Source of the DNA: Sipunculus nudus
Taxonomy: Eukaryota; Annelida; Sipuncula; Golfingiida; Sipunculidae
Length of the DNA stretch: 64,000 nt
Direction of reading: 5' to 3'
Assembly (NCBI GenBank): GCA_026874595.1
Contig: CM049321.1
Coordinates: forward strand, 21,052,979 to 21,116,978
The position numbers and the translations under genes are program-made. Of this stretch, positions 1 to 57,442 are shown piece after piece. How positions within the stretch are numbered: position 1 is the stretch's first letter; the number at the start of each line of letters is the position of its first letter. Under the pieces are notes generated by a model. The model saw only the letters and a list, made by a program, of their open reading frames with translations, did not search any database and was not told the origin of the DNA.

Positions 1-2385
1 CACCAGTCTTGTATACGACAAAGCTATTTGACGTATAAATATGCCCAATTTCAGGCTGATATATCAAATTCCTCCATAGAATTAAGCAATACACTTTGCA
101 AAAGTCATTGTAGATGGCGACACCTGTCTTGTGAACGAGAAAGCCATTAAAGACACATAGACAGGATCAGAATATCAGGCCTTGAGTCTGATGCACCGGG
201 CTGACCAGGCTTGGTGAGAAAGGCTGTTGCCCCGAGTGTACTGTGACAAATTACTGGCTCAGGCTACTGCACTGAGTGAACTCTTGACCTACACCTGGCT
301 AGACTGAGTGAACTTTTGACCTGTACTTGGCTGCACTGAATGAACATGAGGTGATCACATGATACTCATGAGGTGATCACATGCTACCCATGAAATGATC
401 ACATGCTGCCCATGAGGTGATCACATGCCTTGTGCTTGGCTGCACTGTTTGAACTCTTGGCCTAAATCTGGCTGCACTGAATGAACTCTTGATCTGTTGC
501 CAAATCTGAAACAGTTGGCAGTTTCTCAACCTATTCAAGAAACATACACAATCTTGGCCTGTTACGTAACTCTGCTAAAATTTATCCAACACAAACCATT
601 TGAACAAACTTGAGAAGGCTCGCCTCTGGGATCATTTCTGTAAAATATTGAACAATTTGGCTGGACTCTTTACAAGAAGAAGAAGTTTTTATCAGCTTTT
701 TCCCTGTAAAATCTAAGTAAATGCTGATAGCAAAAATAAGCTGAATCCATCAACATTTGATATGTGACTGATAATTGCATAAAATTTGGGAATGGTAGCT
801 CCTGCTATTCCTGAGAAATTATGAATAATGTACAGATGATATGTAATATCATAAATCTACATTTTTTTAAAAGCTTTTAAAAAACATTCTTGTCAATATT
901 TTCAATAGATATTCTAAAATCTAAATGTCTAGAGGCATGATGTAATGGATGCTGATAAACTGGTGCTAGGCTAGATGTATCTGCTTCACACAGCTAACAT
1001 ATATGGTAAAATGACTCAATTCAATCTTTATAATTCAGCCAAAATTCATTTTTTTTTAACCATAAAAGACAATTATTATTAGAATGATTCAGGGAATTAT
1101 TCTTGCAAAATATTAAACAAACTGGCTTCAGTATCATCAGTCGAAAACCGTTTTGTAGGTTTATAACTCATATGGGAAAATACAGCAAAATGGCAAAGTT
1201 CAGCTTCCCATAACTCAGCCAAAAATCATTGAACCAAAACCATTTGAACAAACTTGAATTATCAACTTCTAAGGATAATTAATGTGTGAGATTTAAGAAT
1301 TTGGCCCAGTGGTTTTTGAGAAGAAGATTTTTGTAGCCACTTAGCTAACATGGGCTGTCATGGCATATGACTAAATTAAGCTTCCCATAACTCAGCCAAA
1401 AGTCACTGAACTGAGACCATTTGAACAAACTTGAATTATCAACATCTAAGGATAATTAATGTGTGAGATTTAAGAATTTGGCCCAGTGGTTTTTGAGAAG
1501 AAGATTTTTGTAGCCACTTAGCTAACACGGGCTGTTATGGCACATGACTAAATTCAGCTTCCCATAACTCAGCCAAAAGTCACTGAACTGAGACCATTTG
1601 AACAAACTTGAATTATCAACATCTAAGGATAATTAATGTGTGAGATTTAAGAATTTGGCCCAGTGGTTTTTGAGAAGAAGATTTTTGTAGCCACTTAGCT
1701 AAAATGGGCTGTTATGGCATATGACTTAATTCAGCTTCCCATAACTTAGACAAAAGTCACTGAACTGAGACCATTTGAACAATCTTCAGAAAGCACTACC
1801 CTAGGATCATTTCTGTGCGATATTAAACAATTAGGCCATTTCGTTTCAGAGAAGAAGTTATTTGTAGCTGTCAGTATGATACAGGCACTGATGACCCCCG
1901 TACAAAAAAGGCCGATGCAGGTGGCGCCACCAATACCTCAATTTCAGATATGACTCATGTGACCGACATTGGCATAAAATTTGGTGATGATAGCTCAAGC
2001 CATATCTGAGATTGTAATTTTAGTATGCTTTTTTGGACAGATGACTAAGTTCAACTTCCTGTAACTCGGCCAAAAATCACCAAACTTAAAACATTCGAAC
2101 AAACTTGAGAGAGATTGTTCCAGGGATCATTTCTGTGAAATATTGGACAATTTGGCTGAACAGTTTTGGGGAAGAAGATTTTTAAAGGTTTTTTAGCTTT
2201 TTCCCTATAAAATCTAATAAAATGCAGTTAGCCAAAAAATAAGCAAAATCCGATAGAGTTTTTCAGATGACTAATATTTTGCATAAAATTTAGTTATGCT
2301 AATTCTTGCCGTTTTCAAGATAGTATGGGTTAACCTACAGACGACGGACGACGCCACTCCATCGCATAAGCTCACAGGTTCGCTA
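1..2385 (-). repeat. Large repeat B (left copy, runs off window)
   Basis: Read on the minus strand from 2385, this matches the block starting at 38529 and continuing at 41307-43367. The shared start includes CGAACCTGTGAGCTTATGCG followed by a GTCGTC-rich patch. It contains the palindrome GGTGGCGCCACC (around 1921) and a 177-bp tandem core. At about 2229-2240 it preserves the uninterrupted sequence of the site where the right-hand copy carries an A element. No long ORF. The left end lies outside the window. Confidence 0.85.
1246..1780. repeat. Three tandem 177-bp core units inside repeat B
   Basis: The phrase GAACAAACTTGAATTATC recurs at 1246, 1423 and 1600, with a degenerate fourth start at 1777, giving an exact 177-bp period. 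The equivalent part of the right copy (around 41750-41960) has fewer units, so the core number varies between copies. Confidence 0.85.
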
Positions 2386-4092
2386 ATAAGAATAATGAAT
2401 GATCAGACTATACAATAATTGACCTATCCATGAACCTTATGCGACCTTAATCACATATTCATTCAATGAATAAACATAAGCATTGGACTAATGGAGCAAC
2501 CAATCAGGTGACCTTAAAAATTGTTAATGGTCAATCATCTGACAAAATCAAAATTTTGCATAATTTGACAGAGTTCTGTCAAACAGAACACGTGTAGTCT
2601 GTAAATACTACCAGTATCCATGTCGTCATGCTTTCCGGGATATTTTATTATACGAAGGAGACAGTATAAAAAGTTTCTAGGCTATAGGTTGGGGGAGCCA
2701 TTCCTCCGACTACTGAGTGAATAACAGTGTCTTACCTGGCACATAATTGGTATGGGACAAATAATCCAATATATATATTGCAACACAGTTCATATATGAC
2801 TGCAATATAGTAAACAATGGTCAGGTGATACCAGTTGATGACGTCAGTCAATAGGACGTCATGCGCCATCGCCCTTTGTGACGTCATTATTATGTTATAA
2901 TCAGCTCTCGCTACCATGGGCATGGAAGTCCATATGTGTAGGAGCGTTTTGGGGGCTCATTATAATTATAAGTTAAAAGGGCGGAGCATTTGGGCTGTGG
3001 TGGATAGGTGAATTTCAGGCTTCTGTCTATCTTAACTGGACCTTTGCGTTGACGCTGTTCCCAATCTGAATCATAAAACTTCACGATTTATAACTGTCAA
3101 AGTATAATAACTAACATGGACACGACATCTTTGCGTCGAATCAAGTTAAATATAATTTGTTGTAAAGTGAACAAAACCCAGGTTTCATTAAATTAAATAC
3201 TATTTCGCAAAAACCTGCATTATATTTCTGTGAAAAGAAAGTGCCGGTTCCTCTGTGACACGTCTAGCATGGGCATTCAAGAGATTCACTGCGCGCCGCA
3301 ATATAATACACAAGCGGGCTTATTTTGAAAAGAGCACAAGTGAATGCGCTGTCAAGAAAACAATGAGATCTTGTTCTTGGGCATATTAATTAAGGTCAAC
3401 GCATAATGAATTATGCAAAGGACCTACTCGTATTTCTGACAAATGTTCACGTGACTCCATCGCTTTCTGGCAGTGAAGGCTTTGAAGAATGCCCCTCGTG
3501 CAATTCCTTTTGATCAGTTATGATGCGAGCGTATAGATGAGTTAGAATACCGCTTTAGTTTCGAATAAACTGGACAAAGTTTGCATTCAGCGTGATCATT
3601 TTCCCAAAAAGGCAGACCTTTGACATTTTGCATGTATTACAAAGTCGGTTGCACTACGCTCTAAGCATTGCTGTTTGGAAGCAGGGGATTCCCCTGAATC
3701 GTAAGGGGTCGCATGTCTGAATATTAATAGGCCTAAAGATCAGGCACATTGCATGTTTTTAGGGTCCACTCGCGGGTCACACCTGACACCTGTTTTGTTC
3801 AATCATGGGTCACTACATACAGTCATGCAAGCAACGATGTTTGATGGCCAACTCAGGGGCCCTTTTTTGGACAGTAAATGTGGTGCAGGTCACTACTGCA
3901 AACTAATATTAAACAATTCTGGTTTTCTGAAGGCTCTGAGGAATTGGAAATGCCGATATCACGCAACTTAGTGAAGAAAATTCCAATTTTTTCCAGGTTA
4001 CCCAGGCTCCTTGTCAAGTTGCAAATTCCGTTTCAAAATGCGTTTTCTGCGAATTCCGTCCATTTCCAGCGGTCAGGGAAAATCATTGGCTC
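2386..4092. other. Mostly unique AT-rich DNA, no gene recognised
   Basis: No convincing coding exon was found. The stretch contains a cluster of CRE-like sites (2839-2886) and a consensus minus-strand splice donor at 2735 (see findings). Short frames at 2732-2923, 3753-3971 and 3878-4135 have no recognisable family. Confidence 0.5.
2839..2886. promoter_or_regulatory. Cluster of three CRE-like sites
   Basis: TGACGTCA occurs at 2839-2846 and 2879-2886, with GACGTCAT at 2855-2862. These are full or near-full CREB/ATF sites within 48 bases, an unusual density in AT-rich DNA. No gene can be assigned to them. Confidence 0.45.
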
Positions 4093-10800: not shown

Positions 10801-13800
10801 TCTTGAAAAAAATTGGTTAAAAGACTGTTTTTGAATTATCAGAATTTGTAACTTTTTAAGGGCATGGGAACCCCTACATGATTTTTTTCAGTTCAATTTT
10901 TAATTTAATTAGATGTGGTCGGACAATGGTCCTCAGAGGGCCCCCCATTTCTGGTAAAAATTAAGTTAAATTTGAAAAATATGACAAACAGAAACAGGTT
11001 TTTGTCCATATGCATGAGGGAAAAAATCCTACTGGATCAAATGATCTTAAAGAAGATATGTCTGAAATAATGTGTGCAATATAGAAAATCACCGAGTGTA
11101 GTCTGTTGGCCATATTTGATTTTGAGCAAGTCTGTAATTCAAAAGGTCTGGGGTTCTCATAGTCACCAATGATCACTGTGAAATTTGGTTGTTGTTGAGT
11201 TATCACGTGCGAAAGAAAATCAGCGATTGGGCTGTGGCAGCCATATTGGAATTCCCACAGCTCTGTAATTCAATAGGTCTGGAGCCCTCATAGGTAACAA
11301 TCATCCCTGTGAATTTGAAAAAGCTGCTGTAGGTTGTTGTTGAGTTATCACTCACAAAAAAAAATCAGGGATCAGGCTGTGGCAGTTATATTGGAATTCT
11401 GACAGGTCCGTAATTCAATAGGACTGGAGCTCTAGAAGGTACCAATCATCCTTGTGAATTTGGGAAAGCTGCTACAGGTTGTTGTTGAGTTAACCCGCAC
11501 AAAAGAAAATCAAGGATCGGGCTTTGGTGGCCATATTGGAATTCTGACAAGTCTTGTTATTCAACAGGTCTGGAGCCCTCATAGGTACCAATCATCCCTG
11601 TGAATTTGGGAAAGCTGCAGTAGGTTGTTGTTGAGTTATTGCGTGCAAAAGGAAATCAGCGATTGGGCTTAGCCATATTGGAATTCCGACAGGTTTATAA
11701 TTCAATAGGTCTGGAGCCATCATAGATACCAATCATCCCTGTGAATTTGGGAAAGCTGAAGTATGTTTTGTTGAGTTGTTGCGCACAAAAGAAAGTGTCA
11801 CTGACGGAAGGACGGATGGATGGGAGGACAGACTGACATGGTGATCACTATAGGGCACCGCTTGCCAAGCAGGGCCCTAATTAAGATCCTGTTGAAGAAA
11901 CAAAGCTTAGTATATAAGCTTGGGTAAATTTTTTTTTTTCAGTTACGAGTTCCCATTTATGCAAATCTCGTTAGTGTGTTTCAATCTGAATGTCTGACTT
12001 TAAGTGACAGTTTTTTACCCCCCACTGGATCCCAGACAGATTATGCCTGAATTCTTGAGTCCTTAACACCAAGCCCAAGTACAGGTCAAAGTCCTTCAAT
12101 TAAAGTCTGGGTCAAAGTCTAGTCTGAAATAAAGTTTAAATAAGTCTGAACTGGAGTCTTAACTCTCTCTCAACATCTTATCTTACAACTCTCTCATTGT
12201 CTTTATCTGTCATTATCTGTTGTTAACACTGCCTTTTTGTCTTTTGGGTCTGTTCATTCTTGTAACTTTTTCTTCATACGAGGAAGCATAAAAGGTAACT
12301 CGTTTTACATTTGCTTGCTGAGCTGACAGTAGTATGCATTCATCTTTGGCAGGAGAGGGAACACCCTCGTACTAAGGACCTTTCCTGAGGGGTCTCAGTG
12401 AGGGGGCAGGGCTTTAACAGGACTTGAACCCACAGCCTTACAATGACAGGCACACCTTTGGCAGCCTGACCAACATAACTCTATACACAACTCTATACAG
12501 CTTAGGGGTTTTGTAAGAAAAGGTTCTAACAGGTGTATTAAAAGAAAATAACGAACAACTTTCCCTGCAGATTTCAATTTTCATAAAATGCCACATGGTG
12601 GTTTTTATCTATTCTCATCACTTCTATTTTTCATGTGCATCATGATAATAATGCTTGTTGAGAAAGTAACATCAAAAGTTAAAATCAAGCACAGCCCTGT
12701 GATTCCACACACTATCTTACAGAAAGCCATGTCTACTGGTAAAGCATAAGTTAACTTAAAGATAAGTAAACTTGCATCAAAATAAATCAAATAACATCAC
12801 AATACACAGACTTGCATCTAGAAAAGTAAACCTGCATTAAGATAAATAAAATTACATCACAATACACAAACTTAAGATAAAAAAACTTACATCGCATTAC
12901 ACACACTTATGATAAATAAACTTACATCACTATACACATCATGATAAGTAAACTTATGTCAAGATAAATATACTTACTTAAAGATAAGTAAACTTACATC
13001 AACTTCAAGATAAGTAAACTTACATCATTCCTGTGGCTTTGGTCTTGGTCATCACCACGTTCGTCTCTGGTGTCACTTCCTGTTGGACCTCGGGCAGACA
13101 TGGGAGGATTACGGGCATCACCGAACCCTCCATCTCCACGCGACTGGACCGGTCCAGGGTTACCATGGTGGTTGAAGCGAGAACTCCCCACCCCTTGGTC
13201 TGTAAAGTGTAATACAAAACCACAGTGATCATTTTCGTATCAAACAATTCAGATGTATTGATATTAATTTCTTTGATATGATAGGAATTTTTACCTTTGT
13301 AGAAATTAAGAATGGTGATGTATAGTGCCGCAATGAACACCCAGACTTTAGAGAGTCCATGATCTATGCAAGAAATAATGAACATGCAAATGTTCACCCA
13401 CTGTGATAAAAGCAGTACACAAATCTTTTTAGAAAGCTCATTTAAGCTGACAGACAAATAGCAAAGAATGAATACAAAAGTTTCTTTTTACAAGATAAAT
13501 TATCTAATAAATGGTATCCATTAATTTGCTGTGTCCAGTATTGGGTAGGAGCCAGGAGACCCGAAGTACATGGTTTATTGCAGGTGATAAATTGTTAATC
13601 ACATTAAACAACATGAGTTTTTTTCTTAGCTATTTCTAGCAACTTTTTTGCGAGACGCAATGTTCACAAACCCATTTTCTTATTGCCATAGAGTATCATT
13701 AACCAGTTCCTCTTGCAAGATGCCGCCATTGCACATAAGATGTTATTGTTAAGGCAGTGACATATAAACATCTGCAATAATGTGTATTGTCTCACGCAGT

Positions 13801-16800: not shown

Positions 16801-19800
16801 TTGATGTAAACTTCAATATTCAGTATCCTTAAATGGCCATAAGATTGACTCCTACTTCCTGCAAGAGTTTAAATTGTAAAGAATCCACCCCTACACCTAA
16901 ATATAGCAGGAATGGAATGTCATAGTTGTAACTGTACCTTGGCCTAGTTATCTACATGAAAGGGGTAACAATGGAATGCTTTAGTTCCTGCTGTACCTTG
17001 GCAAAGTTATTCACAGTTGTACCTTGGCAAAATTATTCAGTTGTGCCTTGGCAAAGTTATTCAAAGTTGTACCTTGACAAAGTTATTCACAGTTGTACCT
17101 TGGCAAAGTTATTCACAGTTGTGCCTTGGCAAAGTTATTCACAGTTGTACCTTGGCAAAGTTATTCACAGTTGTACCTTGGCAAAGTTATTCACAGTTGT
17201 ACCTTGGCAAAGTTATTCACAGTTGTACCTTGGCAAAGTTATTCACAGTTGTACCTTGGCAAAGTTATTCACAGTTGTACCTTGGCAAAGTTATCTAGTA
17301 ATCAGTTGTGGATCTTTCCATACATGTTGCTTTAATGGCTGATGGACAAGCAAACTTGTGTAAAATCGTAATTTCTGTCAACAAGCCTTGTAGATAATTA
17401 TGATCAACCATTAAAGTGACATGTATAGAAAGATCCACAAACTGATTAGGCTCACTGGTTCTGGTACTGATTACTTGACCTAGTTATCTACAAGAAAGAG
17501 GTTACAATGGAATGCTTTAGTTCCTGCTGTACTTTGGCCTAGTTATCTACATGGCTTTTTGACAAAGATTATGATTTAACACAAGTTTGCTTGTCCACCA
17601 GCCATTAAAATAGTAAGGATGAAGAGATCCACAAACAGATTAGGGTAACTGGTTTTGGTATTATATGGAACATATTTGACCAAGTTCTTTCACTGTGATC
17701 AAGTTGTAATTAAGCGGCAGCAGTAGAAAGCCAGCAATGTCCCTGTTCATGTCAATGTCAATATTCAGTATCCTTTAATGGCCATAAGATTGACTCCTAC
17801 TTCCTGCAAAAGTTTAAATTGTAAAGAATCCACCCCTACACCTAAATATAGAAGGAGTCGAATGCCATAGTTGTAACTGTACCTTGACCTAGTTATCTAC
17901 ATGAAAGAGGTAACAATGGAATGCTTCAGTTCCTGCTATACCTTGGCAAAGTTATTCACAGTTGTACCTTGGCTTAGTTATCTAGTAATCAGTTGTGGAT
18001 CTTTCCATACATGTTGCTTTAATGGCTGATGGACAAGCAAACTTGTGTAAAATCACAATTTCTGTCAAAAAGCCTTGTAGAAAATTCTGATCAGCCATTA
18101 AAGTAACATGTATGGAAAGATCAAGAAACTGATTAGGCTCCCTGGTTCTGGTACTGGTTACTTGACCAAGTTATCTACAAGAAAGAGGTTACAATGGAAT
18201 GCTTTAGTTCCTGCTGTACCTTGGCAAAGTTATTCACAGCTGTACCTTGGCCTAATTATCTACATGGCTTTTTGACAGAGATTATGATTGAACACAAGCT
18301 TGCTTGTCCATCAGCCATTAAAATAATAAGTATGGAGAGATCCACAAACTGATAAGGGTTACTGGTTTTGGTATTATATGGAACATATTTGATCAAGTCA
18401 TACATCATTGTATTTGTTAACTTGTATCTGAAATGTTTGTTGTCTATGTAAAATCTGTTTCCAACGGATAATATTACCCATTATATGTAATAATTTAATA
18501 TAAATTCTATACATAATGTTAACTTAATATTCCATGTTTGGATATTTTATTTATAAGTGTGCATATATTTTTATTTTCCTTAAATGAATAATGACCAAAA
18601 TGCCTCATTGTTTCCTTAACATTTATTTACAATATGTATCTTGATGTCTTTTCAGGTCCAAAATTCAAGTCACCCGATGCTGACTGTGAAGGTCCATAAC
18701 AACAAAGTGAGAACCCTTTTACTGCCAAACACCAGCCAGGATGATTGTGGACAAAACATCAGGTTATTATAAATACGGCAGACCATGGCCTCTTCTGTTC
18801 CCGCTACTTGGAACATATGACATAATGTCTCTTGGGCACTTCAGCCAACTTAAAGTAGAGCATAAGTTTGCTAAGACTAGATAGGGCCAGATAACACAAA
18901 TACTTGGAACATTTTGGGGTTGACAGTGTCACAAATACTAAGCCTTTGATCATGAAATCTAAAATTTGAAGTCACAGGGGTTTTTCCTGTGTGTGACGTC
19001 TCTGCCGAGTTGCTCATAGACGTGCCAATGGTTTTTGAACAAATCACACCTCTTGTTTTTTGTTAACAAATAAAAAGGGAAAAATGTTTTTCCTCCAGGA
19101 ATTGGGTTCATTTTATGTAAAATCTATATTAATATTTTTTCATAGGTAAGTGTGCTACTGTGCTATTTGATAATAAAATGTCGAAATGAGATTTGGAATA
19201 CATTTACAGCTAAACGTCATGTTTTGAAAGTTTCATTTTATCTGCCTTGTTTCATGTATACAAACAATTAATTGTAGCCTCATATTTGTTTAATGATCAC
19301 ATCAAGTAAATAAAGATCAGCATATATGATAAAATATAGTGGGGATGGTCAGATAAGAAAATGCTAATGACTATCTGGCTGAATTATGCTTGCATGCATA
19401 AATGGGCTTTGACTGTGCCAGCCAGTGGTTTTGTCCTCCAATACATAGGAAACTGCTTTGGAAATATCCTGTACTGTGCATTTTTTTAAATTTATCTCTC
19501 AACAAGACATTTCTTGGCACCGCTGGTGCCATAGTATCGCCAGACAAATGAGGTTTTGTGGTATTTTGTTGATATAATGTGATGTATTTGTATTTTAGCA
19601 ATGAATGTGAGAAACATTTGTACAAAATATAGGGATAGGGAAGGACAATTGATCAAAGGGTTTTTGACTTATAATGCTCACAGTGCTGTCAAGAGGCCCT
19701 TTTTAAGATATTCATGATTTTATGTTTTTCACCAAATATGGGAATATTCAAGGTCAAGGTCACTCTCATAGTCACGGTCATGACCCCAAATCAATAAACT

Positions 19801-22800
19801 GCATTCCAAAATATCCAACATTTGAAAAAAAAATTAAATTAAAAAAAAATAATTTAAATTAAATTAAATTTTAAAATTAAATTTAAAATTAAATATACCT
19901 CATTCCATAAACTATATCTATATACATGCATAACATGAAAGAAATCTGTCCATTACTGTTTGACTTATAATGCTCACAGTATATACTGTCAAGTGGCAAT
20001 GATGGGGTATTCAAAGGCGCAAAAAACAAGAAAAGGACAACAGGTGGCGCCACCTATCTTCTGCAAAAGACAAAACTATCCAAGATCTTCCATCAACTTG
20101 ATTTTTGGACCAATCCATGCATCCCTTTTTAAGATATTCATGATTTTATGTGATTTTCACCATATATGGTAATATTCAAGGTCAAAGCCACTCTCAAAGG
20201 AAAGGTCAAGACCCCAATTTTAATATACATCATCCTATAACCCATACCTATGTACATGCATAATATTAAAGAAATCTGTCAATCAGTTTTTGACTTGTGA
20301 TGCTAAAAGTACTGTCAAGTGGCAATGATGGGGGTATTAAACGGCACAAAAACAAGAAAAGGATACTAGGTGGCACCACCAGTTTCCGGTACATGACATC
20401 ACTATCCAAGATCTTTGTCCAACTTGATTTTTGGATAAATCCATGAAAGATTTCTTGAGATATTTAAGAATTTGTGTGATTTTCCCCAAAAATGGATCTA
20501 TTCAAGGTCACTCTCCTAGTTGAGGTCATGACCCCATTTTAAATAGGCTTCGTCCTCTCGCCTATATCTATAAATGTGTCAAGTTTGAAAAAGATCCTTG
20601 AAATATTTTTTGAGTTATTGTGTCCAAAAGAAATCTCTGCGGCGGCGCAACCGTGCCTAAACCATAGTATCTCCAGACTATGTCTGGCGATACGATATTT
20701 TAAATACAATATACCAAATGCACACAGAGCAAAGCCCAACATATAATTTGTCTAATTACTATCAATCACTGAACTTAATGAAATGTTATGATAAGCACAG
20801 GTTTTTCCTCGTAAAAGAATTTTTTTTCTTCACTCAAACCATGTGACACACCAATGTTTCTAACTAGAATATCAGCAGAAGCTGACAAAAGCCCTCAGCC
20901 TAAAGAACAGTGTTTAAAGGTGGTAACAGTAACAAGTACTAAATATCTGTTCTGACATGGATGTATATCTGTACATGTCTCAGTTATAAATTTAAAATGA
21001 AGAGGTATGTACCATGATTCATAACAATCCACCAAATGTTTCCAAAAAAATAAGCTTCTAAGTTTTATTCTATTATAAGCTCTGTGACCTTGAAAAGTAG
21101 GTTAAGGTCACCCATCTTCGAACTTGACCGAGATTTTGTCGATATACATCTTCACCAAAGAAATAAAATTCCTATTGTGAATCCTTTTAGAGATATCCCG
21201 CTCACAAGGCCAAAGTTGAAAATCCAAGAAAAATTCATTAAAAATCAGAAATTGTAGGTGGCATCCCCAAACTTGTGCAGCAGTTACAGACCATCAGTCC
21301 CTATGATCATAGTAAGTATTGTGAAAATCCACCCAATGGTTCCTGAGAAATAAGCTTCTAAATGTTTTTTCTATAATCAGCTCTAAAACGTAGAAAAATA
21401 GGTCAAGGTCATCCATCTTCGAACTTGACCGAGATTTTGTCAATATACATCTTCACCGAAAAAATAAAATTCCTACGGTGAATCTTTTTTTAGATATCCC
21501 GCTCACAAGCCCAAAGTTGAAAAATACGATAAAAATTTATTAAAAATCAGAAATTGTAGGTGGCGCCACCAAACTTGTGTAGCAGGTACAGACTATCAGT
21601 CTCAATAATCATAGTAAGTTTTGTGAAAATCCACCAAATGGTTCCTGAGTAATAAGCATCTAAGTGTTTTTCTATAATCAGCTCTAAAATGTAGAAAAAT
21701 AGGTCAAGGTCACCCATCTTTGAACTTGACCGAGATTTTGTCGATATACATCTTTTCCGAGGAAATAAAATACTGACGGTGAATCCTTTTCCAGATATCC
21801 CGCTCACAAGGTAAAAGTTAACGGACGACGGACGGACGGACGGACGGACGGACAGACAGCTTGGGTGACGACAATAGCCCATCAGCTTAAGGGCTGAGGG
21901 CTAAAAAGTAACAAAGTCTATAGTACACCAGCATAGAGTACCACAGTATGCACTCATGACAAGTTTATGATTGAGACATAAATATAGCTGAAATACCATG
22001 ATAAAGATAAAATAATTCTTGAACCATGAAATATTTATACATGTCACTATCATTTATACATGTCATCTTATCAGCAATGTTGAGACATCAGATCTCTGAG
22101 TGTTCAATGATGGTTTTCCCCCAAAAAGTATTTTTTTTTATTATTGACAAGTGTACCTAGTAATAGGCTGGTATCAGTACAAACTGAGAACCAGCAGATC
22201 AAAATAGAAATTTTATAGCAGAGATAATGCTGGGTTTTGGATCAAACCTTGGAAAACAGATGGGAATCACTACTCTTGTAGTCCACAAAACGATAAATAT
22301 TATATGCATATTGAATAGGGTTGTATCAATTTATCGATACGAATCGATACACGACACGATAACCGAAATGCGTTGCATGCTGTATTGGACGTATCGATTG
22401 CTTGCTAATGAATAGCAGTCTAACTTTACATATAACCATGACGATTTATAAATGTAAATGCACTGCAGCCTATATATTTGTTGCTTTGGCTTTTAAGACT
22501 TGTTAATAAATGTATATACGCATGCACGTCAGTACTTCCATGACAAGCATGCGCATGTGAGTGCCAATAGATGAATGATAATAACGTTTATCTTTATTAA
22601 TGAAATCCATATTCACATCACATATTGCTACTAGGAACAAGGTACATTCATGTATATATCCTTTCTATATGTCATTTAATCTCTATTTTTTTTATTTACA
22701 CAGCCCGTCATAGGTTATTCAGAACTCCCGCGTTCGACATCAGATGTCAAATAAATGGTTAAAGCCTGGGGACAAATCCTGTACAAACAGGAGAGTAACT

Positions 22801-41500: not shown

Positions 41501-43367
41501 AAAAAAGCATATTAAAATTTTAATCTCAGAAACGGCTGGAGCTATCATCACCAAATTTTATGCCAATGTTGGTCACATAGGTCATATCTGAAATTGAGGT
41601 ATTGGTGGCGCCACCTGCATCGACCTTTTTTGTACGGGGTCATCAGTGCCTGTATCACACTGAGGGCTACAAAAAACTTCTTCTCTGAAACCATATGGCC
41701 AAAATGTTTAATATTGCACAGAAATGATCCTAGGGTAGTGCTTTCTCAAGTTTGTTCAAATGGTCTCTTTTCAGTGACTTTTGGCTAAGTTATGGGAAGC
41801 TGAATTTAGTCATATGCCATAACAGCCCATTTTAGCTCAGTGGCTACAAAGATCTTCTTCTCAAAAACCACTGGGCCAAATGCTTAAATCTTACACATTA
41901 ATTATCCTCAGATGTTGATAATTCAAGTTTGTTCAAATGGTTTTGGTTCAGTGCTTTTTGGCTGAGTTAGGGGAAGCTGAACTTAGCCAGTTTGCTGTAT
42001 CTTCCTATATGAGTTATAAACCTGGGAAACGTTTTTCGACTGATGCCACTGAAGCCAGTTTGTTTAATATTTTACAAGAATAATCCCTACAATAATTCTT
42101 ATAATAATTGTCATGAATGGTTCCACATGAATGATTTTTGGCTGAATTATGGAGATTGAATTGAGTCATTTTACCATATATGTTAGCTGTGTTATGCTGG
42201 TACATCTAGCATTGCAACAGTTTATCAGCATCTATTACATCATGCCACTAGACATTTAGATTTTAGGTTATCTTTGGTTAATATTTTGGTTATAATTCAA
42301 GAAAGTTTTTTTAAAAGCTTTTAAAAAATTTAGATTTATGATTTAAGTTATTCATCATACCAGGCTATGTAACAATCATGGGTATTCAGTTTTCTGTGGC
42401 TATATAAAGACAACTGTACATGAATTATTAATTATTGGTATCCCTACTCAACTTAATTAAAGAATTTGCCATCATCGTATTTTAATTTTGCATTCAGTAT
42501 GCGTCCATAATAATTTTACATATATTCCTGATTTCTTTTTTATAAAAAGTCAGCTGAAATGCATTTTGTATTGGGAAAATAAATTTCAAAATTATTTCAA
42601 GTAGGGACCACTTTTGTGTACAGATAGCAGCACTTGGTTTACCATTGGCAGATTGTCAGTTCCTTAATGTTGGCTATTAGCCAAGATGATGTAAGCTATA
42701 TAAATAGTTTTGGCACAGTGCCAGGATTGGAAGAAGTGCAGCCAGGTATAGGTCAAGAGTTCACTCAGTGCAGGAGCTGCATTCTATTTATAGCTTTGGT
42801 AGACTGCTTATTGCATCATATATGGCACCCAAGTTCAGCCTGAATCTATTTATAGCTTTGGCAGACTGCCAACTGTGTCAGATTATGCAACAGGTCAAGA
42901 GTTCACTCAGTGCAGCCAGGTACAGGTCAAAAGTTCACTCAGTCTAGCCAGGTGCAGGTCCAGAGTTCACTCAGTGCAGTAGCTTGAGGCAGCAATTTGT
43001 CACAGGTCACTCGGGGGCAACTGCCTTACTCACCTAAGCCTTGTCAGCCCAGTGCATCAAACTCTGGAGAAGTTTGACCTGTCTATGCATCTTTGATGGT
43101 ATTCTCATGGTGCCACCTACATTGGCTTTTGCAGTGTATGCGCCTGCTTATTTCTACAGAGGAAAACATCAGCCTAAAATTGGGCATGTTTATACATATC
43201 GGGTAGCTTTATAGTGTACAAGACTAGTGGCGCCACCTACAATAATTTTTGCACAGTGTATGTCCCTGCTTATTTCACAGGAGGGGTTTGACATATCAGT
43301 CTGACATTGGGCATATTTATATATCTCTTCATTGTATATAAGACAGGTGGTGCCAGCTACAATCATT
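38529..43367 (+). repeat. Repeat B, right copy, split by element A copy 2
   Basis: Starts TTAGCGAACCTGTGAGC, is interrupted at about 38690 by an A element, and resumes at 41307 (CTTACTGCATTTTCC). It continues, in opposite orientation, along the sequence seen at 1-2385, including the palindrome at about 41605. The part at 42840-43260 matches the extreme left of the window. It runs into element C1 at 43368. Confidence 0.75.
38686..41306 (+). mobile_element. Hairpin-ended element A, full-length copy 2 (2.6 kb)
   Basis: Near-identical to 35101-37717 over its whole length. It shows scattered substitutions and small indels, for example a gap of about 15 bases near 40590 relative to 36988. It is inserted in repeat B; the other B copy (about 2229-2240) shows the uninterrupted site. 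The flanks show no clear target duplication. Confidence 0.88.
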
Positions 43368-45385
43368 GTATCTGCCAAAACAGAGTTTTGCGGATACTAT
43401 GTTTTCAGTCGGACGCCGAGGCTGCCGCCATCGCCGCTAAGGTTTCCGAAAAAATCCTCCATAACCACTGGGCAGAATTTTTTAAAATTTGGAATTATGA
43501 TCAGTCGCATGTGAACTGCTGGGCCCTCATTTTTGGTTGACCTCTGACCTTTCTTCTCTGCTCAGCGTCCATTTGTGCGTCTGTTTCCACACATAAACCC
43601 ACATATCTCAGGAACCAGTTGACCGATCAGTCTAAAAATTTTGCACAAATGTAGCCCTTTGATAGCTTTATAACATACACTAAAAATGGTGGCGCCACCT
43701 ACAACCATTTTTGCACAGCGTCCACCTGTTCATCTGCCTTAGGATAAAATCACTCATATCTCAGCAGTGGTTTGACTTTTCCACCTAAATTTTGCAGGTT
43801 TATACATCCTGGACAGCTCTCTTGATTTATGGCAGGTGGCGCCACCTGCATTCAGGTTTACTCTGCAGACATCCAAGCTCAAATCTCGGAACCGTTAGAC
43901 TGATTGGGCCAAAATTTTGCATGTGTATAGATCTCACATAGCTCTTCATCATAGGCAAAACTAGTGGCGCCACCTGCAACCATTTATGCACAGCGTCCAT
44001 CTGTTCATCTGCCTTGGGATAAAATCACTGATATCTCAGCAGTGGTTTGACTTATCCACCTGAAATTTTGCAGGTTTATACATCCCGGACAGCTTTCTCG
44101 ATTTTATGACAGGTGGCGCCACCTACATTCATGTTTACTCTGCAGACATCCAAGCTCATATTTCGGGAACTGTTTGACTGATTGGGCCAAAATTTTGCTT
44201 GTGTATAGATCTCACATAGCTCTTCATCGTAGGCAAAACTGGTGGTGCCATCTGCAACCATTTATGCACAGCGTCCATCTGTTTATCTGCCTTGGGATAA
44301 AATCACTGATATCTCAGCAGTGGTTTGACTTATCCACCTGAAATTTTGCAGGTTTATACATCCTGGACAGCTCTCTTGATTTTATGACAGGTTGCGCCAC
44401 CTACATTCACATTTACTCTGCAGACATCCAAGCTCATATCTGAGGAACCGTTTGACAGATTGGGCCAAAATTTTGCATGTGTATAGATCTTACATAGCTC
44501 TTCATCATAGGAAAAAGTGCTGGCGCCAACTGCAACCATTTATACACAGTGTCCATCTGTTCATCTGCCTTGGGATGAAATCACTGATATCTCAGCAGTG
44601 GTTTGACTTTTACACCTGAAATTTTGCAGGTTTATACATCCTAGACAGCTCTCTTGATTTTATGACAGGTGGCACCACCTACATTCAGGTTTACTCTGCA
44701 GACATCCAAGCTCATATCTCGGGAACAGTTTAACCGATTGGGCCAAAATTTTGCCTGTGTATAGATCTCACATAGCTCTTCATCATAGGCAAAACTGGTG
44801 GCGCCACCTGCAACCATTTATACACAGCGTCCATCTGTTCATCTGCCTTGGGATAAAATCACTGATATCTCAGCAGTGGTTTGACTTTTCCACCTGAAAT
44901 TTTACAGGTTTATACATCCTGGACAGCTTTCTCGATTTTATGACAGGTGGCGCCACCTACATTCAGGTTTACTCTGCAGACATTCAAGCTCATATCTCGG
45001 GAACCGTTTGACTGATTGGGCCAAAATTTTGCTTGTGTATAGATCTCACATGCTCTTCATCATAGGCAAAATTGGTGGCGCCACCTGCAACCACTTCTGC
45101 ACAGCTTCCATCTGTTCATCTGCCTTGGGATAAAATCACTCATATCTCAGCAGTGATTTGACTTATCCACCTGAAATTTTGCAGGTTTATATATCCTGGA
45201 CAATTTCCTCGATTTTATGACAGGTGGCACCACCTACATTCACGTTTACACTGCAGACATCCATGCTAATATGCAACACACCTCACTCTATTCCCCTTGC
45301 CACATAATCCATGCCTCACTTCACCCGTCCTACTCTGATTTCTGCGGATACACCTATTCGCTTGTTGACATCCCATATTCTAGTT
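43368..45385 (+). mobile_element. Hairpin-ended tandem-core element C1
   Basis: Starts GTATCTGCCAAAACAGAG with hairpin partner TTTTGCGGATAC, then TATGTTTTC and a GCCGCC-rich patch. About six dimeric cores of roughly 277 bp follow. Each half ends in a GGTGGCGCCACC-type palindrome (about 43690, 43836, 43964, 44111, 44667, 44798, 44945, 45074), spaced alternately near 131 and 147. It ends TGCGGATACACC...CATATTCTAGTT. No coding capacity. Confidence 0.85.
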
Positions 45386-46824: not shown

Positions 46825-49800
46825 AGCTCAGCTGACTGAAAGTCATTTGAGCTATAGCGATCACTCTTTGTCCGTCGTCCGTCTGTCCGTCCGTTAACCA
46901 GGCACAAATCGTAACCGCTGGACCTAGAACCTTGTAACTTGGGATTCTGAGAGGTCAATAAAAAATCTCCTTGGAAACCAGAAATTAGGTCTCTGTTACC
47001 CATATCCTTCGAGCTATGTGGCCCCAAAGTACCCCCCAGAAAAGTCAAAAATTTCATACAAAAACTTCAATATCTCATTAACTACTTGACTGATGGTCAT
47101 GATTTTTGGCATACATATTGATCATGAGATGTTCGATCAGTTCCTGCAGACTGGTGGTGCCACCTGTATTTTTCGATTTTTTACGATTTTTTCCTCTATT
47201 TTTGAGACCTTTGAGGATGCTGTCATCTGTTAGCGTGGCACAAATCGTAACGACTGGACTTAGAATCTTAATTCTTGACACACTGAGAGGTCCATGAAAA
47301 ATCTCCTTGGAAACCAGAAATTAGGTCTCTGTTACCCATATCCTTTGAGCTATCGGGCCCCAAAGTACCCCCCAGAATAGTAAAAAAAAAAAAAAAACTT
47401 CAATATCTCAATAACTACATCACTGATGGTCTTCATTTTTGGCATACATATTGATCATGAGATGTTCGATCAGTTCCTGCAGACTGGTGTCGCCACCTGT
47501 ACTGTTTGATTTTTTACGATTTTTTCCTCTATTTTTGAGACCTTTGAGGATGCTGTCATCTGTTAGCGTGGCACAAATCGTAACGACTGGACCTAGAATC
47601 TTCATTTTCGACACACTGAGAGACCTATGAAAAGTCTCCATGGAAACCAGAAATTAGGTCTCTGTTACCCATATCCTTCGAGCTATGGGGCCCAAAATTA
47701 CCCCCCAGAATAGTCAAAAATTTCATACAAAAACTTCAATATCTCATTAACTACATCACTGATGGTCATGATTTTCGACATACATATTGATCATGAGATG
47801 TTTCATCAGTTTGTGCAGACTGGTGGTGCCACCTGTATTTTTCAATGTTCACGAATTGTTTTCTCCATTTTTGAGACATTTAAGGATGTAGTTATCTGTC
47901 AACAGGGTACAAATAGTAACGACTGGACCTAGAATCTTCGTTCTTGACACACAGGGAGACCCATGATAAGTCTCCATGGAAACCTGAAATTTGGTCTCTG
48001 TTACCCATATCCTTTGAGCTATGGCACTCCAAAGTACAGCTCAGAATAATGGAAAATTTGATACAAAAGCTAAAGTATCTGAACAACTAATGCAGAGATA
48101 ACCATAATTGTTTGCATGGATATTGATCATGGAGTGTTTCATAAGTTTCTGCAGACTGGTGGCACCACCTGTATTTGTTCTTTTTTTTTTCCGAAATTTT
48201 TCTGTATTTTTGAGACCTTTAAAGATATGAACATCTGGTAACAGGGCACAAATCATAAAAACTGGACCAAGAATCTTCATTCTTGACACACAGGGAGACC
48301 CATGAAAAGTCTCTATGGAAACTTGAAATTAGGTCTCTGTTACCCATATTCTTTAAGTTGTATGGGTCCAAAATACCCCCCCCCCCCATGAATAATGGAA
48401 AATTTGATACAAAAACTGCAGTATTTCAATAACTACAACACTGATGGTCATGATTTTCGGCATACATATTGATCATGAGCTGTTCCATCAGTTTCTGCAG
48501 ACTGGGTGTGCCACCTCTATTTTTTTTCAAATTTTTACGAATTTTTTTCTTTTTTTTGAGACCTTTAAAGATGTGGTTATCTGTCAACAGGGAACAAATC
48601 GCAACAACTGGACCTAGAATCTTCATTCTTGTCATGCAAGGAGGCTCATGAAAGGTGCCTGTGGAAACTTGAAATTAGGTCTCTATTACCCATATCCTTC
48701 AAGCTATAGGACTCTGAAGTATCCCTCAGAATAATGGACAATTTGATACAAAAACTGAAGTATCTGAACAACTAATGCAGAGATCACCATGATTTTTTGC
48801 ATGGATATTGACCATTAAGTGTTTTTATTAGTTTCTGCAGACTGATGGAGCCACCTGTATTTTTGTATCCGCCAAAACGAAGTTTTGTGGATACTATGTT
48901 TTTGACCGAGTTCCTCCGCCGTGGCGGCGTTCCTTTCCAGAGAGCTCCTCGGAGACTAATGGACCGATTTTTCCCAAACTTACACCTATTATCGGGTCAC
49001 ATGTGAACTGGTGCCTAACCAATTTGCATTGACCTCTGACCTTTCCTCTCTATCCAGTGTCCATTTGTGGGTCTGTTTCCACTCATAAACCCTCATATCT
49101 CGGGAACCGTTTGACCGATCAGGAAATAAAATTGATACAAATGTAGCCCTTGGATTGCTTTATAACATACACAAAAAATGGTGGCGCCACCTGTAACCAT
49201 GTTTGCACAGTGTCCATCTGTTCATCTGCCTTGGGTTAAAATCACTCATATCTCTGCAGTGAATTGACTAATTCACCTGAAATTCGTCATGTGTATACAT
49301 CCAGGATAGCTTTCTTGATTTTATGACAGGTGGCGCCACCTACATTCACGTTCACGCTGATGACATCCAAGCTTATTTCTCGGGAACCGTTTGACCGCTC
49401 AGGAAATAAAATTTATACAAATGTAGCCCTTTGATAGCTCTGTAACATACACAAAAAATGGTGGCGCCACCTGTAACAATGTTTGCACAGCGTCTGTCTG
49501 TTAGTCTGCCGTGGCCTAAAATTACTCATTTCTCTGTAGTGGTTCGACATAACTGCCTAAAATTTTGCAGGTTTATAAATCGTGGACAGCTTTCTTGATT
49601 TTATGACAGGTGGCGCCACCTACATTCTAGTTAACGCTGGACACATCCAAGCTCATATCTCAGGAACCATTTGACCGATTGGGCCAAAATTGTGCATGTG
49701 TTTAGATCTCACATAGGTCTTTATCATACACAAAACAGGAGGGGTTACCTGCAAAGATTTTTGCACAGTGTTTGTCTGTTTGTCTGCCATTGGCAAAAAT

Positions 49801-50219
49801 CGCTCATATACATGTAGTGGTTTGACTTTTCTGCCTAAAATTTTGCAGGTGTATACAACTTGGACAGATTTCTGGATTTGTGGTAGGTGGCACAACCTAC
49901 ATACACATTTAGGCTGCAGACATCCATGCTAATATGCAACATACCTCACTCTATTTCCCCTTGCCACTCAATCCATGCCTCACTTTCCGATTTTGGCAGA
50001 TACATGTAGTCACTTGTCGGTTACCCGTATTCTAGTTTTAAAAGTTTACACATTTTTCTCTACTTTTGAGATATATAAATACAGACTAAATCTTGGCCTG
50101 TTGGTTAATCTGTTTGATGCTTCAGTTGAATTGGTATATACTACCATTCTGGTGATAAAATTTCCTTTTGCGAATCTCTTCCCAGTCAGCTGAGCGTCAT
50201 GACCCATGGGTCACTTGTT
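46825..50219 (+). mobile_element. Element A (copy A1) nested in C0
   Basis: Starts AGCTCAGCTGACT with hairpin partner AGTCATTTGAGCT, then CCGT repeats (46873-46895) and about six cores of 330-345 bp. The recurring phrase is CAATATCTCATTAAC at 47070, 47402 and 47738, with later variants. Each core holds a GGTGGTGCCACC-type palindrome. It ends GTCAGCTGAGCGTCATGACC, CATGGGTCACTTGTT. It is itself interrupted by a C element at 48865-50037. Confidence 0.85.
48865..50037 (+). mobile_element. Element C nested in A1
   Basis: Starts GTATCCGCCAAAACGAAG with partner TTTTGTGGATAC; a GCCGTGGCGGCG patch follows. Cores carry palindromes near 49182, 49327, 49460 and 49610. The 3' hairpin GTAGTC/GGTTAC is degenerate, and the element ends CCGTATTCTAGTT. 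Confidence 0.83.
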
Positions 50220-51633
50220 CCAAAACTTGATCCCATTATAGGGTCACATGTGAACTGGTACTATACCATTTTTGCGTTGAATTCAGACCTTTCCTTTCTG
50301 CAATGTTTTTATCTGTGTGTCTATTTTTACACATTAACCCCCATATCTTCGGAATCATTAGACCAATCAGGCTGAAATTTTGCACAAGTGTAGCATTTAG
50401 ATAGTTTAATATCATACAAAAAACTTGTGGTGCAACATGCAACCATTTTTGCTCAGCATCCATCTTTTCGTCTGCCTTGGTTTAAAATCACTTGTATCTC
50501 TTGATTGGTTGGACTTATCCATCTGAAAACTTGCATGTGTATACATCCTGGATAGTTTTTTTAGCTCAGCTGACTTTCAGTCATGCTGGGCTATAGCGAT
50601 GGGTCTTTGTCCGTCGTCCTTCCGTCTGTCCGTCCGGCCGGCCGTTAGCAGGGCACAAATCGTAACCGTAGGGGCTAGGGCCATGAACCCTATGCAGTCT
50701 TAGAGGTTATAAAAAGATCTCCTTGCAAACCTGAAATTAGGTCACTGTGACCTATATCTTGAAGTTATGGGGTGTGTTTGCACCCCCCAGAAATAACTCT
50801 TTGAGACAAAATTTTCATCCCAAACCTTCCATCTTTCACATACAGCTCACCTACCAACAGGGGAAGAACCATAATTTTTTTTAGGTCAAAAGGTCAAAGG
50901 TCAAGGTCACAGGAGCCTCTTCTTTGAAAAGCCTGTGGATGCATTTTAAGCCAACCCTTTCATCCCAATTCTTTGATCTGTCACATATAGCTCACCTACT
51001 AAGTTGGAGAAGAATCCTATAGATTTTGAGGTCACAAGGTCAAAGGTCAGGGTCACAGGATCCACTTCTTTGAAATGGTTGTGGACACATTTCAAGCTAG
51101 ACTTTTCATTCAAAACCTTTCAGCACTGATATGGCTTCTCTGCCAACAGGGGAAAAGACCTGTTGATTTTGAGGTCAAAGGTCAAGTTCACAGCACCCAC
51201 TTCTTGCATGGAGTAATTTTCAGGCAAACTTTTCAATCTGTACCTTCCATCTGTCATATATGGCTTACCTACCAATAAGGGAAGAAGCCTATTGATGTTG
51301 AGGTCAAAAAGTCAAAGGTCAAGGTCACAATATTTAATTGTTCTAAATGCTTGTTAGCATATTTCAAGTGTAACTGTTCAACCCAAACCTTCAGTCTTTC
51401 ACATATGCCACATCTATGCATCACTCAGTTTGACTAAAACTTCATATTTATGGGTCTTTTTGCTTGAATAAATAACTTATTGATTTTGGGGTCAGCTGGT
51501 CAGCAGGTTAAAGGTTGCAGGTCAAAGTTATTCACCCATTGGTTGCCAAGTAATTACACCAGATTTAAGTAGTTAGTAGTTACCCATCATTTAGAAAAAA
51601 TCCAGTTGATATGTGGGCAAAAGGCCAAGGTCA

Positions 51634-52699: not shown

Positions 52700-54034
52700 G
52701 CATCCGCCAAAACAGAGTTTTGGATACTAGGTTTTCAGCTGCACGCCGCTGCCGCCGCATAGGTGTCCAGGGAACTCCTCCATAACCGCTGGGCAGAATT
52801 TTACGAAACCCGAGATTATGTTCAGTTCACATGTGAACTGCTGCACCCCAATTTTGTTTTGACCTCTGACCTTTCTTCTGCACTCTGCGTCAGTTTGTGT
52901 GTCTGTTTCCACACATAAACCAACATATCTCGGGAACCGTTTGACCGATCAGGAAATTTTTTTGCACAAATGTAGCCCTTGGAGAGCTGTTTAACATACA
53001 AAAAATGGTGGCGCCTCCTGCAACCATGTTTGCACAGTGTCCATCTGTTTGTATGCCTTGGGTTAAAATCACTCATATCTCCGCAGTGGTTTGACTAATT
53101 CACCTGAAATTCAGCATGCGTATACAAATATAGCCCTGGGATAGCTTTATAACATATACAACAAAAGGTGGCGCCACCTGCAACCATGTTTGCACAGTGT
53201 CCAATTGTTCATCTGCCTGGGGTTAAAATCACTCATATCTCTGCAGTGGTTTGACTAATTCACCTAAAATTCGGCATGCATATACATCCTAGACAGCTTT
53301 TCTGATTTTATGACAGGTGGCGCCACCTACATTAATGTTTACGCTGCAGACATCCAAGCTCATATCTCGGGAACCGTTTGACCGATTGAGCCAAAATTTT
53401 GCATGTGTATAGATCTCACATAGCTCTGTATCATACGCAAAACTGGTGGCGCCACCTGTAGCCATTTTTGCACAGCTCCCGTCTATTTGTCTGCCATGGG
53501 ATAAAATCACACATATCTCTGCAGTGGTTTGACATATCTGCCTAAAATTTTGCAGGTTTATACATCCCCGACAGCTCTCTTGATTTTATGACAGGTGGCA
53601 CCACCTACATTCTACATTTATGCAGCAGATATCCAAGCTCATATCTTGGGAACCGTTTGACCGATTGGGCCAAAGTTTTGCATGTGTATAGTTCTCACAT
53701 AGCTCTTTATCATACGCAAAACTGGTGGCACCACCTGCAGCCATTTTTGCACAGCGTCCATCTGTTTGTCTGCCAAGGGCAAAAATCACTCATATACATG
53801 TAGTGGTTTGACTTATCTGCCTTAAATTTTGCATATGTATACAACTTGGACAGCTTTCTGGATTTTGTGGTAGGTGGCGCAACCTACATACACAATGGGG
53901 CTGCAGACATCCATGCCAATATGCAACACATCACTCTATTTCCCCTTGCCACTCAATCCATGCCTCACTTCACCAGTTCCACTCTGAGTTAGGCGGATAC
54001 ACGTAGTCACTTGTCGACTACCCGTATTCTAGTT
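52700..54034 (+). mobile_element. Element C nested in A2
   Basis: Starts GCATCCGCCAAAACAGAG with a GCCGCTGCCGCCGC patch at about 52745. Cores carry palindromes near 53168, 53317, 53446, 53595 and 53726. The 3' hairpin GTAGTC-acttgtc-GACTAC is intact and is followed by CCGTATTCTAGTT. Confidence 0.85.
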
Positions 54035-54766
54035 CTGGCATGTATTTCCTTGATTTTTGCTATATATTTTGATCTTATATTTGCCTTTTGTGAAGTTCCT
54101 TATGAGACTGACAGGTTTCAAGCAAGCTGTTGGAATAGTTCCTGATAGCTTAACAATCATGCATTTTCCTCAGACCATCAATTCACTGTGTTTTAACCAG
54201 ACATAGGTGATATATATTTCTGTTGTCATAGAAAATTTTCAACAAATTGGCAAATTGGTTCTTCAAAATTTGACTGGAAGTTGTGAATCTCAGTCCATGA
54301 TGTCACAGGTCATGCATGGCAGCTGAGCGTCATGACCCATGGGTCACTTGTTTTATTTTATGACTGGTGGCACCACCTACATTCGAGTTCACCCTGCAGA
54401 CATCCATGCTAATATCTCAAGACTGGTATGAGGCATCCTTCTGAAAATTTGCATGTGTATATACCTCACATAGCTCTTGATCATACACAAAACTGGTGGC
54501 GCTACCTGCAACCATTTTGCATAGAGTCCGTCTAAGGTTAAAGGTTTGCTGCCATGGGATAAAAGCACTTATATCTCTGCAGTGGTTTGACTTATCCACC
54601 TGAAATTTTGGATATGTATACACCTTGGATAGCTTTCTCTTTCAAATAACAGGTGGCACCACCTACAATCAGTTTCCCCTTCCCACTCAATCCATGCCTC
54701 ACTTCACCCATCCCACTATGATTTCGGCGGATACATAGATGCTTTTCAACCAACCATATTCTAGTT

Positions 54767-55714: not shown

Positions 55715-55866
55715 AAAGAGGCTCCCACTCAACCAATAAAGGTTTTACAGAATACCTTTTGGACAGTATAAGTATTCTTTAATTTTTTAGACCATTATTA
55801 AAAGAGGCTCCCACTCAACCAATAAAGGTTTTACAGAATACCTTTAGGACACAGTATTAATATTGT
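55715..55866. repeat. Tandem duplication, 86-bp period
   Basis: AAAGAGGCTCCCACTCAACC begins at 55715 and again at 55801; the second copy runs into element D2. Confidence 0.85.
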
Positions 55867-55872
55867 TTAATT

Positions 55873-57442
55873 GTATCCCCAGACAAAGTCGGGGGATACT
55901 ATGTTTTCATACCAGTCCCGCGGCCGCCGCATATAAATCTTGTTGGCAAGATTACTCAAAAAATATTTCACAGATCTTTACCAAACTTGGTATATGTATA
56001 GATATGGGTGAGAAGACGATGCCTATTTCTAAAATGAGGTCATGACCTTTACTAGGAGAGTGTCCTTGACCTTGAATATTCCCATATTTGGTGAAATTCA
56101 CACAAAATCTTTAATATCTCAGTAAGGGATACATGGAATGATCCAAAACTCAAACTGACCGAAGATCTTGGATAGCCTTGTCTTTTGCAGAAGACAGGTG
56201 GCGCCACCTTGTGTCATTTTCTTGTTAAAATGATGTTTACGCAATAACTTTGTAAGAATTTGAGGTACAGTCACCAAACCTACAGGTTTGATGCATCTTA
56301 TCAACGGCTAAGTCAAGTTCAAACATGGATGACCTTGATGCATTTTTTCAAGGTCACAGCAGCGATTATGCTAAAATGATATTAGGGCAATAACTCAAAA
56401 AGAATTTGTGGTACAGTCAATAAACCTACAGTTAAGGTGCATCTAATCAAGGGCTAGGCCAAGTTCGAATACTGATGACCTTGATGCATTTTTCAAGGTC
56501 ACAGAGGCGATAACACTGAAATGATGTTTCTAAGTCTTGTAGGTGCAATAACTCAAAAAATTTTTCACGGATCTTTACCAAACTTGATATACATGTATGT
56601 ATAGATATGGGTGAGAGGACGACGCCTATTTCTAAAATGAGGTCATGACCTTTACTAGGAGAGTGTCCTTGACCTTGAATAGGTCCAATTTTGGGGAAAA
56701 TCACACACATTCTTAAATATCTCAAGAAATATTGCATGAATTGATCCAAAACAAAGTTGATCAAAGATCATGGATAGGGTTGTCTTGTTCCAGAAACTGG
56801 TGGCACCACCTATTATTCTTTACTTGTTTTCATGCCTTTTAATACCCCCAAAATTGCCACTTGACAGTACTTTGATCATTATAAGTAAAAAATTAATGGA
56901 CAGATTTTTTTTATATTATGCATATACATAGATATGGATTATGGGATGATGTTTATTTAAATTGGGGTCATGACCTTTCCTATTAGAGTGGCCTTGTCCT
57001 TGAATATTCCCATATTTGGTAAAATTCACCTTAAATCTTTAGTATCAGGGATACATGGAATGATCCAAAAATCAAATTGACCGAAGATCTTGGATAGCTT
57101 AGTCATTTACAGAAGACAGGTGGTGCCACCTTGTGTCGTTTCCCTGTTAAAATGATGTTGACGCAATAACTTTGTAAGAATTTGAGGTACAGTCACCAAA
57201 CCCACAGGTTTGATGCATCTTATCAACGGCAAAGTCCAATTTGAACATGGATGACCTTGATACATTTTTTTCAAGGTCACAGCAGTGATAATGTTAAAAT
57301 GAAATTACAGTAATAACTCCAAAATAATTGTTGGTACAGTCACCAAACTTTCAGGTTAGATGCATCTTATCAAGGGCTGGGGGGGGGGGGGGTTAATTAT
57401 CGGGAATACTATGGCAACTGCAGTGCCAAGAAATATCTAGTT
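55873..57442 (+). mobile_element. Hairpin-ended tandem-core element D2
   Basis: Starts GTATCCCCAGACAAAGTC with partner GGGGGATAC, then TATGTTTTC and CGCGGCCGCCGC. Tandem cores contain AAGACAGGTGGCGCCACC (about 56194) and variants at about 56800 and 57115. The 3' hairpin is GGCAACTGCAGTGCC, then AAGAAATATCTAGTT. A G homopolymer run lies at about 57379-57391. It matches D1 in inverted orientation. Confidence 0.8.

Follow-up and report, generated by a model that had tools for sequence, protein, structure and literature searches.

How can one and the same 12-bp palindrome be present in several repeat families that otherwise differ from each other? This question is raised by a 64,000-nucleotide stretch of the Sipunculus nudus genome (GenBank assembly GCA_026874595.1, contig CM049321.1, positions 21,052,979 to 21,116,978 of the forward strand; the whole stretch is called the window in the following), in which the palindrome GGTGGCGCCACC sits in the core units of different repeats. 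A sequence-only reading of the window, made by a model, had proposed that a perfect palindrome is preserved while everything else drifts, and that it represents a functional site, such as a dimer-binding site or a hairpin used in rolling-circle replication, or a shared ancient core. We found that the core units of many families are homologous, that a module of two boxes as well as its spacing are conserved between the families, and that this module is found in elements whose left ends differ.

The palindrome is indeed strongly overrepresented. The window contains 18 exact copies, whereas 100 dinucleotide shuffles gave 0.00 on average, and 44 copies with up to two mismatches compared to 0.31 expected ones. 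In the whole genome (1,426,538,692 bases on 153 contigs), 111,757 exact sites were counted versus only 14 for the control CCACCGCGGTGG, which consists of the reversed letters of the palindrome and is itself a perfect palindrome of identical composition and equal GC-richness. The CpG-decayed form GGTGGCACCACC, in which TG or CA replaces the central CpG, adds a further 45,699 sites on both strands (versus 28). Because the genome mean is only approximately 5 exact sites per 64 kb, the window has to be regarded as rich in the palindrome; seven random 10-kb pieces contained one exact copy and 11 copies with up to two mismatches. Within the window, the palindrome is absent at this threshold from the arrays at 1199-1868 (177 bp), 11187-11794 (145 bp) and 50813-51119 (146 bp). 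The single positions given in the sequence-only reading were right to within three bases, not always as exact copies: the sites at 47153-48158 and 57119 carry one mismatch, 48844 carries two and 48504 three. The common word order it had noticed also holds, since in the sense direction ATATCTCA is followed by CAAAATTTTGC-like words and then by the palindrome.

For the comparison between families, 135 units (up to two mismatches) were taken from the window, the seven random pieces and 20 pieces around exact palindromes; they were clustered with the palindrome masked, then family consensuses were built. Three of these units fit no family, and the alignment of nine families omits F6b, F7 and F9, which comprise 3, 2 and 2 units, respectively; F5 (3 units), F3b (4), F6a (6) and F8 (6) are also founded on few units. 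The aligned families have in common a core module of nearly constant length, in which the palindrome is followed by CTATCCAAGATC- and AAAATTTTGG-like words and then by a second box, TGAGATAT, the two boxes being 83-89 bp apart. With up to one mismatch allowed, the second box was recognised at a start-to-start distance from the palindrome of mostly 85-89 bp; it escaped recognition at this threshold in 8 of 24 units of F2, 9 of 32 of F1b, 9 of 32 of F1a, 8 of 10 of F4, 5 of 6 of F8, 4 of 6 of F6a, 1 of 4 of F3b and 1 of 3 of F5. Among the 140 columns, 21 are invariant in all nine consensuses, and 13 adjacent ones are formed by the palindrome together with the A that precedes it. In contrast, the right flanks of the consensuses share on average only 47% identity (range 29-70%). 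Hence, the palindrome outlasts its flanks between the families, and with such low flank identity these families do not represent recent copies of one consensus. The proposed ancient common core is borne out by the nine-family alignment and by flank homology tests, which are weighed below.

Because the families had been gathered through the palindrome, a palindrome-free test was made, which used exact TGAGATAT alone as anchor in the window plus the random pieces (134 kb). At 19 of the 29 usable sites, a palindrome with up to three mismatches was found 83-89 bp upstream; the same test with shuffled palindrome letters gave a mean of 0.23 and a maximum of 18 in up to 500 shuffles. Among the ten anchors lacking the palindrome, one belongs to a core unit whose palindrome has four mismatches, while nine are, judged by eye, not core-like.

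The conservation between families is not mirrored by the fate of the inserted copies. Six genome patterns, which fixed flank letters only and left the palindrome as well as a six-letter control free, matched on both strands 3813 (F4), 2776 (F3a), 15083 (F2), 384 (F5), 8884 (F1a) and 12307 times (F1b), and decay after insertion was determined from the first 100 matches per pattern, i.e. from 600 copies in total. In each of the six families the majority sequence equals the palindrome, which is exact in 59 (F4), 65 (F3a), 36 (F2), 33 (F5), 26 (F1a) and 62 (F1b) of 100 copies. Its non-CpG sites deviate in 2.0, 2.8, 5.7, 6.6, 6.4 and 2.7% in the same order of families, compared to 2.8% (F4), 6.2% (F3a), 7.2% (F2), 2.7% (F5) and 2.0% (F1b) in the control, which gave no value for F1a; the F5 value of the palindrome drops to 3.4% once one subfamily site is excluded. 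The CpG of the palindrome is lost in 31 (F4), 22 (F3a), 52 (F2), 27 (F5), 58 (F1a) and 23 (F1b) of 100 copies, and counting by eye in F1a gave a neighbouring CpG kept in approximately 36 and the palindrome CpG in 42 of 100 copies. Since the palindrome decays approximately like its neighbours and its CpG even faster, there is no visible preservation by the host. The claim of preservation amid general drift is thus correct between families, whereas within a family the palindrome drifts like its neighbours after insertion. This combination of identity between families and free decay within them suggests that the palindrome is conserved between replicating lineages through selection on those lineages. 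As a more general observation, the window and the seven random pieces display a signature of CpG decay (observed/expected 0.48 for CpG, 1.26 for TpG and 1.25 for CpA), which agrees with the fast CpG loss in the palindrome.

Which elements carry the module? At least two of the carriers, F1 and F2, resemble HINEs (non-autonomous Helentrons), of which excerpts of PMC7492417 and PMC4067079 describe features such as the subterminal inverted repeat (subTIR), an inverted repeat and a right-end copy. The F1 left end at 43369-43396 (+) comprises the subTIR TATCTGCCAAAAC and an inverted repeat; the left end TATCYGCCAAAAC plus inverted repeat occurs at 43369 and 48866. It is followed by a core array at 43602-45272 (+), a 278-bp dimer (149 + 129 bp) with palindromes at 43688, 43835, 43963, 44112, 44241, 44390, 44519, 44668, 44797, 44946, 45074 and 45223, and by the right end at 45338-45350 (+), an inverted subTIR copy with three mismatches. 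A second F1 element (48866-50002, +) has an exact subTIR at 48866, exact palindromes at 49180, 49329, 49460 and 49609, one with two mismatches at 49886 and a right-end copy at 49990. The third (52701-54021, +) extends from the left subTIR at 52701 over palindromes at 53007-53884 to the right-end copy at 53987, after which a 6-bp stem-loop, GTAGTC...GACTAC, can be seen by eye; this stem-loop is also clear at locus L043 and decayed in other copies. An F1-type fragment (54366-54733, +) contains palindromes at 54366, 54495 and 54652 (one mismatch each), with a right-end copy following at 54721. All four inverted subTIR copies show 2-3 mismatches. F1 starts after T, in line with the T-T insertion of HINEs: TTG precedes TATCC in 87 of the 100 left-end matches listed (by eye, a few rows being right ends on the opposite strand). 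The F2 left end at 46825-46894 (+) consists of the subTIR AGCTCAGCTGA, an inverted repeat to 46853 and GTCC-type repeats at 46870-46894; the 336-bp core array (46893-48868, +) bears palindromes at 47153, 47486, 47822, 48158 (one mismatch), 48504 (three) and 48844 (two). Further AGCTCAGCTGA left ends were noticed at 35105, 38691, 50563, 57477 and 58187, mostly with the inverted repeat and GTCC-type repeats. The F4-type left end at 2340-2392 (-), TTAGCGAACCTGTGAGC..., is GTC-rich, differs from those of F1 and F2 and has no clear inverted repeat; the matches of several loci stop at 2386-2392. Right ends of families other than F1 were not found.

Taken as a whole, we tentatively favour, with slightly less than an even chance, the explanation that the palindrome is an inherited sequence-specific site which is read by a host protein and has been kept since it aids the propagation of the elements. 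The module, i.e. the TGAGATAT box, approximately 75 bp and the palindrome, builds the central repeats of the elements, and the 13-bp site (A plus palindrome) would be the recognition site of a host DNA-binding protein common to all families, dimeric or not. Through its binding, the element DNA would become more accessible to replication or transposition; lineages losing the palindrome would leave fewer offspring, which would result in the identity between families, while each inserted copy would decay freely. We infer all three parts, i.e. the binding by a protein, its origin from the host and the benefit for propagation. It is possible, though doubtful, that a single portable cis-module is carried by Helentron-type elements whose ends differ, that its palindrome is read by a single host DNA-binding protein, and that this module is the common key to the success of the elements and has seeded more than 150,000 intact or CpG-decayed sites in the genome.

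However, several observations weigh against the host-read site. Flank homology reached p <= 0.05 (200 shuffles) in only 18 of the 36 family pairs, and because few of their pairs pass (1 of 8 for F4, 2 of 8 for F8), the homology of these two families is less sure. Moreover, the families were originally collected by palindrome match, and the 19 positive units of the anchored test belong mostly to F1, F2 or F3 of one window. In the reverse direction, TGAGATAT was found beside only 30 of 54 palindromes with up to two mismatches (4.5% for a random 40-bp stretch). Furthermore, the inserted copies are unprotected, which is unlike lasting germ-line occupancy, and half-broken subfamilies have spread, namely GGTGACGCCACC in 23 of 100 copies of F5 and GGTGGCCCCTCC in 12 of 100 copies of F1a. 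This spread implies that the full site is an advantage but no necessity.

Alternatively, the palindrome could be a mere relic, i.e. the slowest part of one ancestral core unit and partly a selection artefact, which has no present function. The homology of many units, their neutral-like decay after insertion and the collection of units by palindrome match are consistent with it. Nevertheless, we regard it as unlikely, because 13 adjacent invariant columns are opposed to 47% flank identity, the TGAGATAT-anchored test recovered the palindrome at 19 of 29 sites, the preceding A is conserved although it was not a selection criterion, and a CpG should speed change at the site, not slow it. If a host protein reads the palindrome, the insulator protein CTCF might come to mind, which would recognise its core site on either strand; the motif CCASYAGRKGGCRS was taken from an excerpt of PMC6746451. 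Its part SYAGRKGGCRS fits six of the nine family consensuses (F2, F3a and F3b fail at SY), but the CCA of positions 1-3 is found at the expected upstream place in none of the nine. The full vertebrate motif is approximately 70-fold enriched in the genome, with 5310 matches versus 76 for the reversed control and in many variants, which makes it probable that the canonical CTCF motif is in use in this animal. We also found a CTCF-like gene (C11:67037578-67038411, L028) with an open stretch of 906 amino acids and 11 C2H2 fingers; the helices and contact residues of fingers 3-5 match those of human CTCF, while finger 6 and the later ones differ. Clustered C2H2 zinc-finger genes are numerous on C16, C7, C9 and C11, most of the matches listed being on C16. 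Since the CCA is missing, the CpG of the palindrome is unprotected and the symmetric second half, which is superfluous to the motif, is conserved in the families, we do not class the palindrome as a CTCF site; also, the half-broken subfamilies have a weakened core. CTCF is hence very unlikely as the explanation, and the palindrome may work like a weak CTCF site.

The reader of the site could also come from the elements themselves, if a Helentron Rep protein bound the palindrome in each repeat in an iteron-like manner. HINEs rely on Helentron proteins, the tandem sites bear some resemblance to iterons, and the genome holds 143 Helitron_like_N matches, with one Helentron carrying an OTU domain and an endonuclease domain downstream. 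Helentrons with open frames of more than 2200 amino acids, for example at C8:80139053, C4:36174940 and C11:50385293, are possibly recently active. But, the left ends of the carriers differ, and the palindrome (up to two mismatches) is absent from all eight Rep loci. Around three autonomous elements, which are at best candidate partners of the carriers, it is absent from seven of eight pieces; in the eighth piece it lies inside F1-type units. A partner Helentron with F1, F2 or F4 left ends was not found in these eight pieces either. For a site common to elements with different ends, a host factor is an easier explanation than the Rep protein of each family, and we consider the Rep reading quite unlikely. 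Finally, a hairpin or cruciform could be kept for its structure and help rolling-circle copying or array growth, as partly anticipated in the sequence-only reading. The 12-bp symmetry is perfect, and an excerpt of PMC5139131 ties palindromes to array junctions in one bivalve satellite. However, RNAalifold found no covariation in the nine family consensuses, compensation in double changes at paired positions of the 600 copies was not above chance, 281 of 282 perfect palindromes in these copies equal the consensus, and asymmetric subfamilies spread without compensation. In F1 elements, a separate right end lies past the array, which also rules out the palindrome as F1 terminal hairpin. Without covariation, it is the sequence that matters, not the structure, and a structural role appears very improbable.

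The other families are represented in the window by single units or small groups. Palindromes without assigned strand are those of F4 (A1-type) at 1920-1931 (exact, palindrome first on the plus strand) and 41604-41615 (exact, in opposite orientation to 1920), F3a at 20043-20054 (exact) and 20369-20380 (one mismatch, TGAGATAT 87 bp on at 20456) and F5 at 21559-21570 (exact, 301-bp array). Two F8 units (43226-43357, +) have palindromes at 43226 (one mismatch) and 43346 (two), and F3 units (56197-57130, -) at 56197 (exact), 56799 and 57119 (one mismatch). F1 left ends approximately 10 bp past F2 and F8 palindromes raised the idea that HINE insertion is aimed at the palindrome, which was dismissed with only 14 of the 100 matches listed; all 14 share the GGTGGAGCCACC flank and therefore appear, by eye, as one amplified composite. 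In this F2-F1 composite (48844-48900), GGTGGAGCCACCTGTATTTT precedes the F1 left end in 14 of the 100 matches listed, probably as one amplified unit, and the F8-F1 arrangement may be another composite. RNA polymerase III A/B boxes were rejected by eye as well, because GGTTC of their consensus is not conserved. In addition, the window contains an exon or gene of the Sdh5 family (succinate dehydrogenase flavinator) at 61897-62373 (+; Pfam PF03937, E 4.6e-25) and a 26-bp tandem repeat of 11.7 copies at 16992-17294, which is spanned by an open frame.

The central repeats of HINEs are usually treated as satellite-like cargo, and a box that is invariant between families with diverged ends and repeats suggests that the central part of the element contains something required. 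The 13-bp site offers a bait to find the putative protein and a marker for tracing the repeats across species, and motif scans in such genomes can be expected to give results dominated by the palindrome site. Our searches, confined to open-licence literature, listed no paper describing one palindrome across HINE families whose ends differ. A full-text search with the 12-mer and two 10-mers gave, among the matches listed, a cloning primer as the sole 12-mer match, the rest being judged by title; viral and prokaryote collections gave one match each to the palindrome plus spacing plus TGAGATAT, neither with core-like flanks by eye.

How does the module compare with known systems? The CTCF motif, as discussed, shares SYAGRKGGCRS with six of the nine families, differs by its upstream CCA and does not need the symmetric second half that is conserved here. 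According to excerpts of PMC5139131, monomers of the BIV160/Cg170 superfamily have two conserved motifs despite their divergence, as in the two-box module. Among DTC84 and the pearl elements of bivalves, the similarity lies in DTC84, where a palindrome close to the junction of the repeats is conserved, both comparisons being by description. If the motifs of BIV160/Cg170 or DTC84 were the same boxes, part of our finding would already be known. In architecture, the carriers resemble HINEs as portrayed in the excerpts consulted, e.g. Cg_HINE of Crassostrea gigas: the left subTIR with inverted repeat and the central satellite-like repeats are shared, as are the GTCC-type microsatellite in F2 and, in F1, the start after T and an inverted subTIR copy near the right end. 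Those excerpts do not describe what is seen here, namely one identical 12-bp palindrome in the core repeats of elements whose left ends differ.

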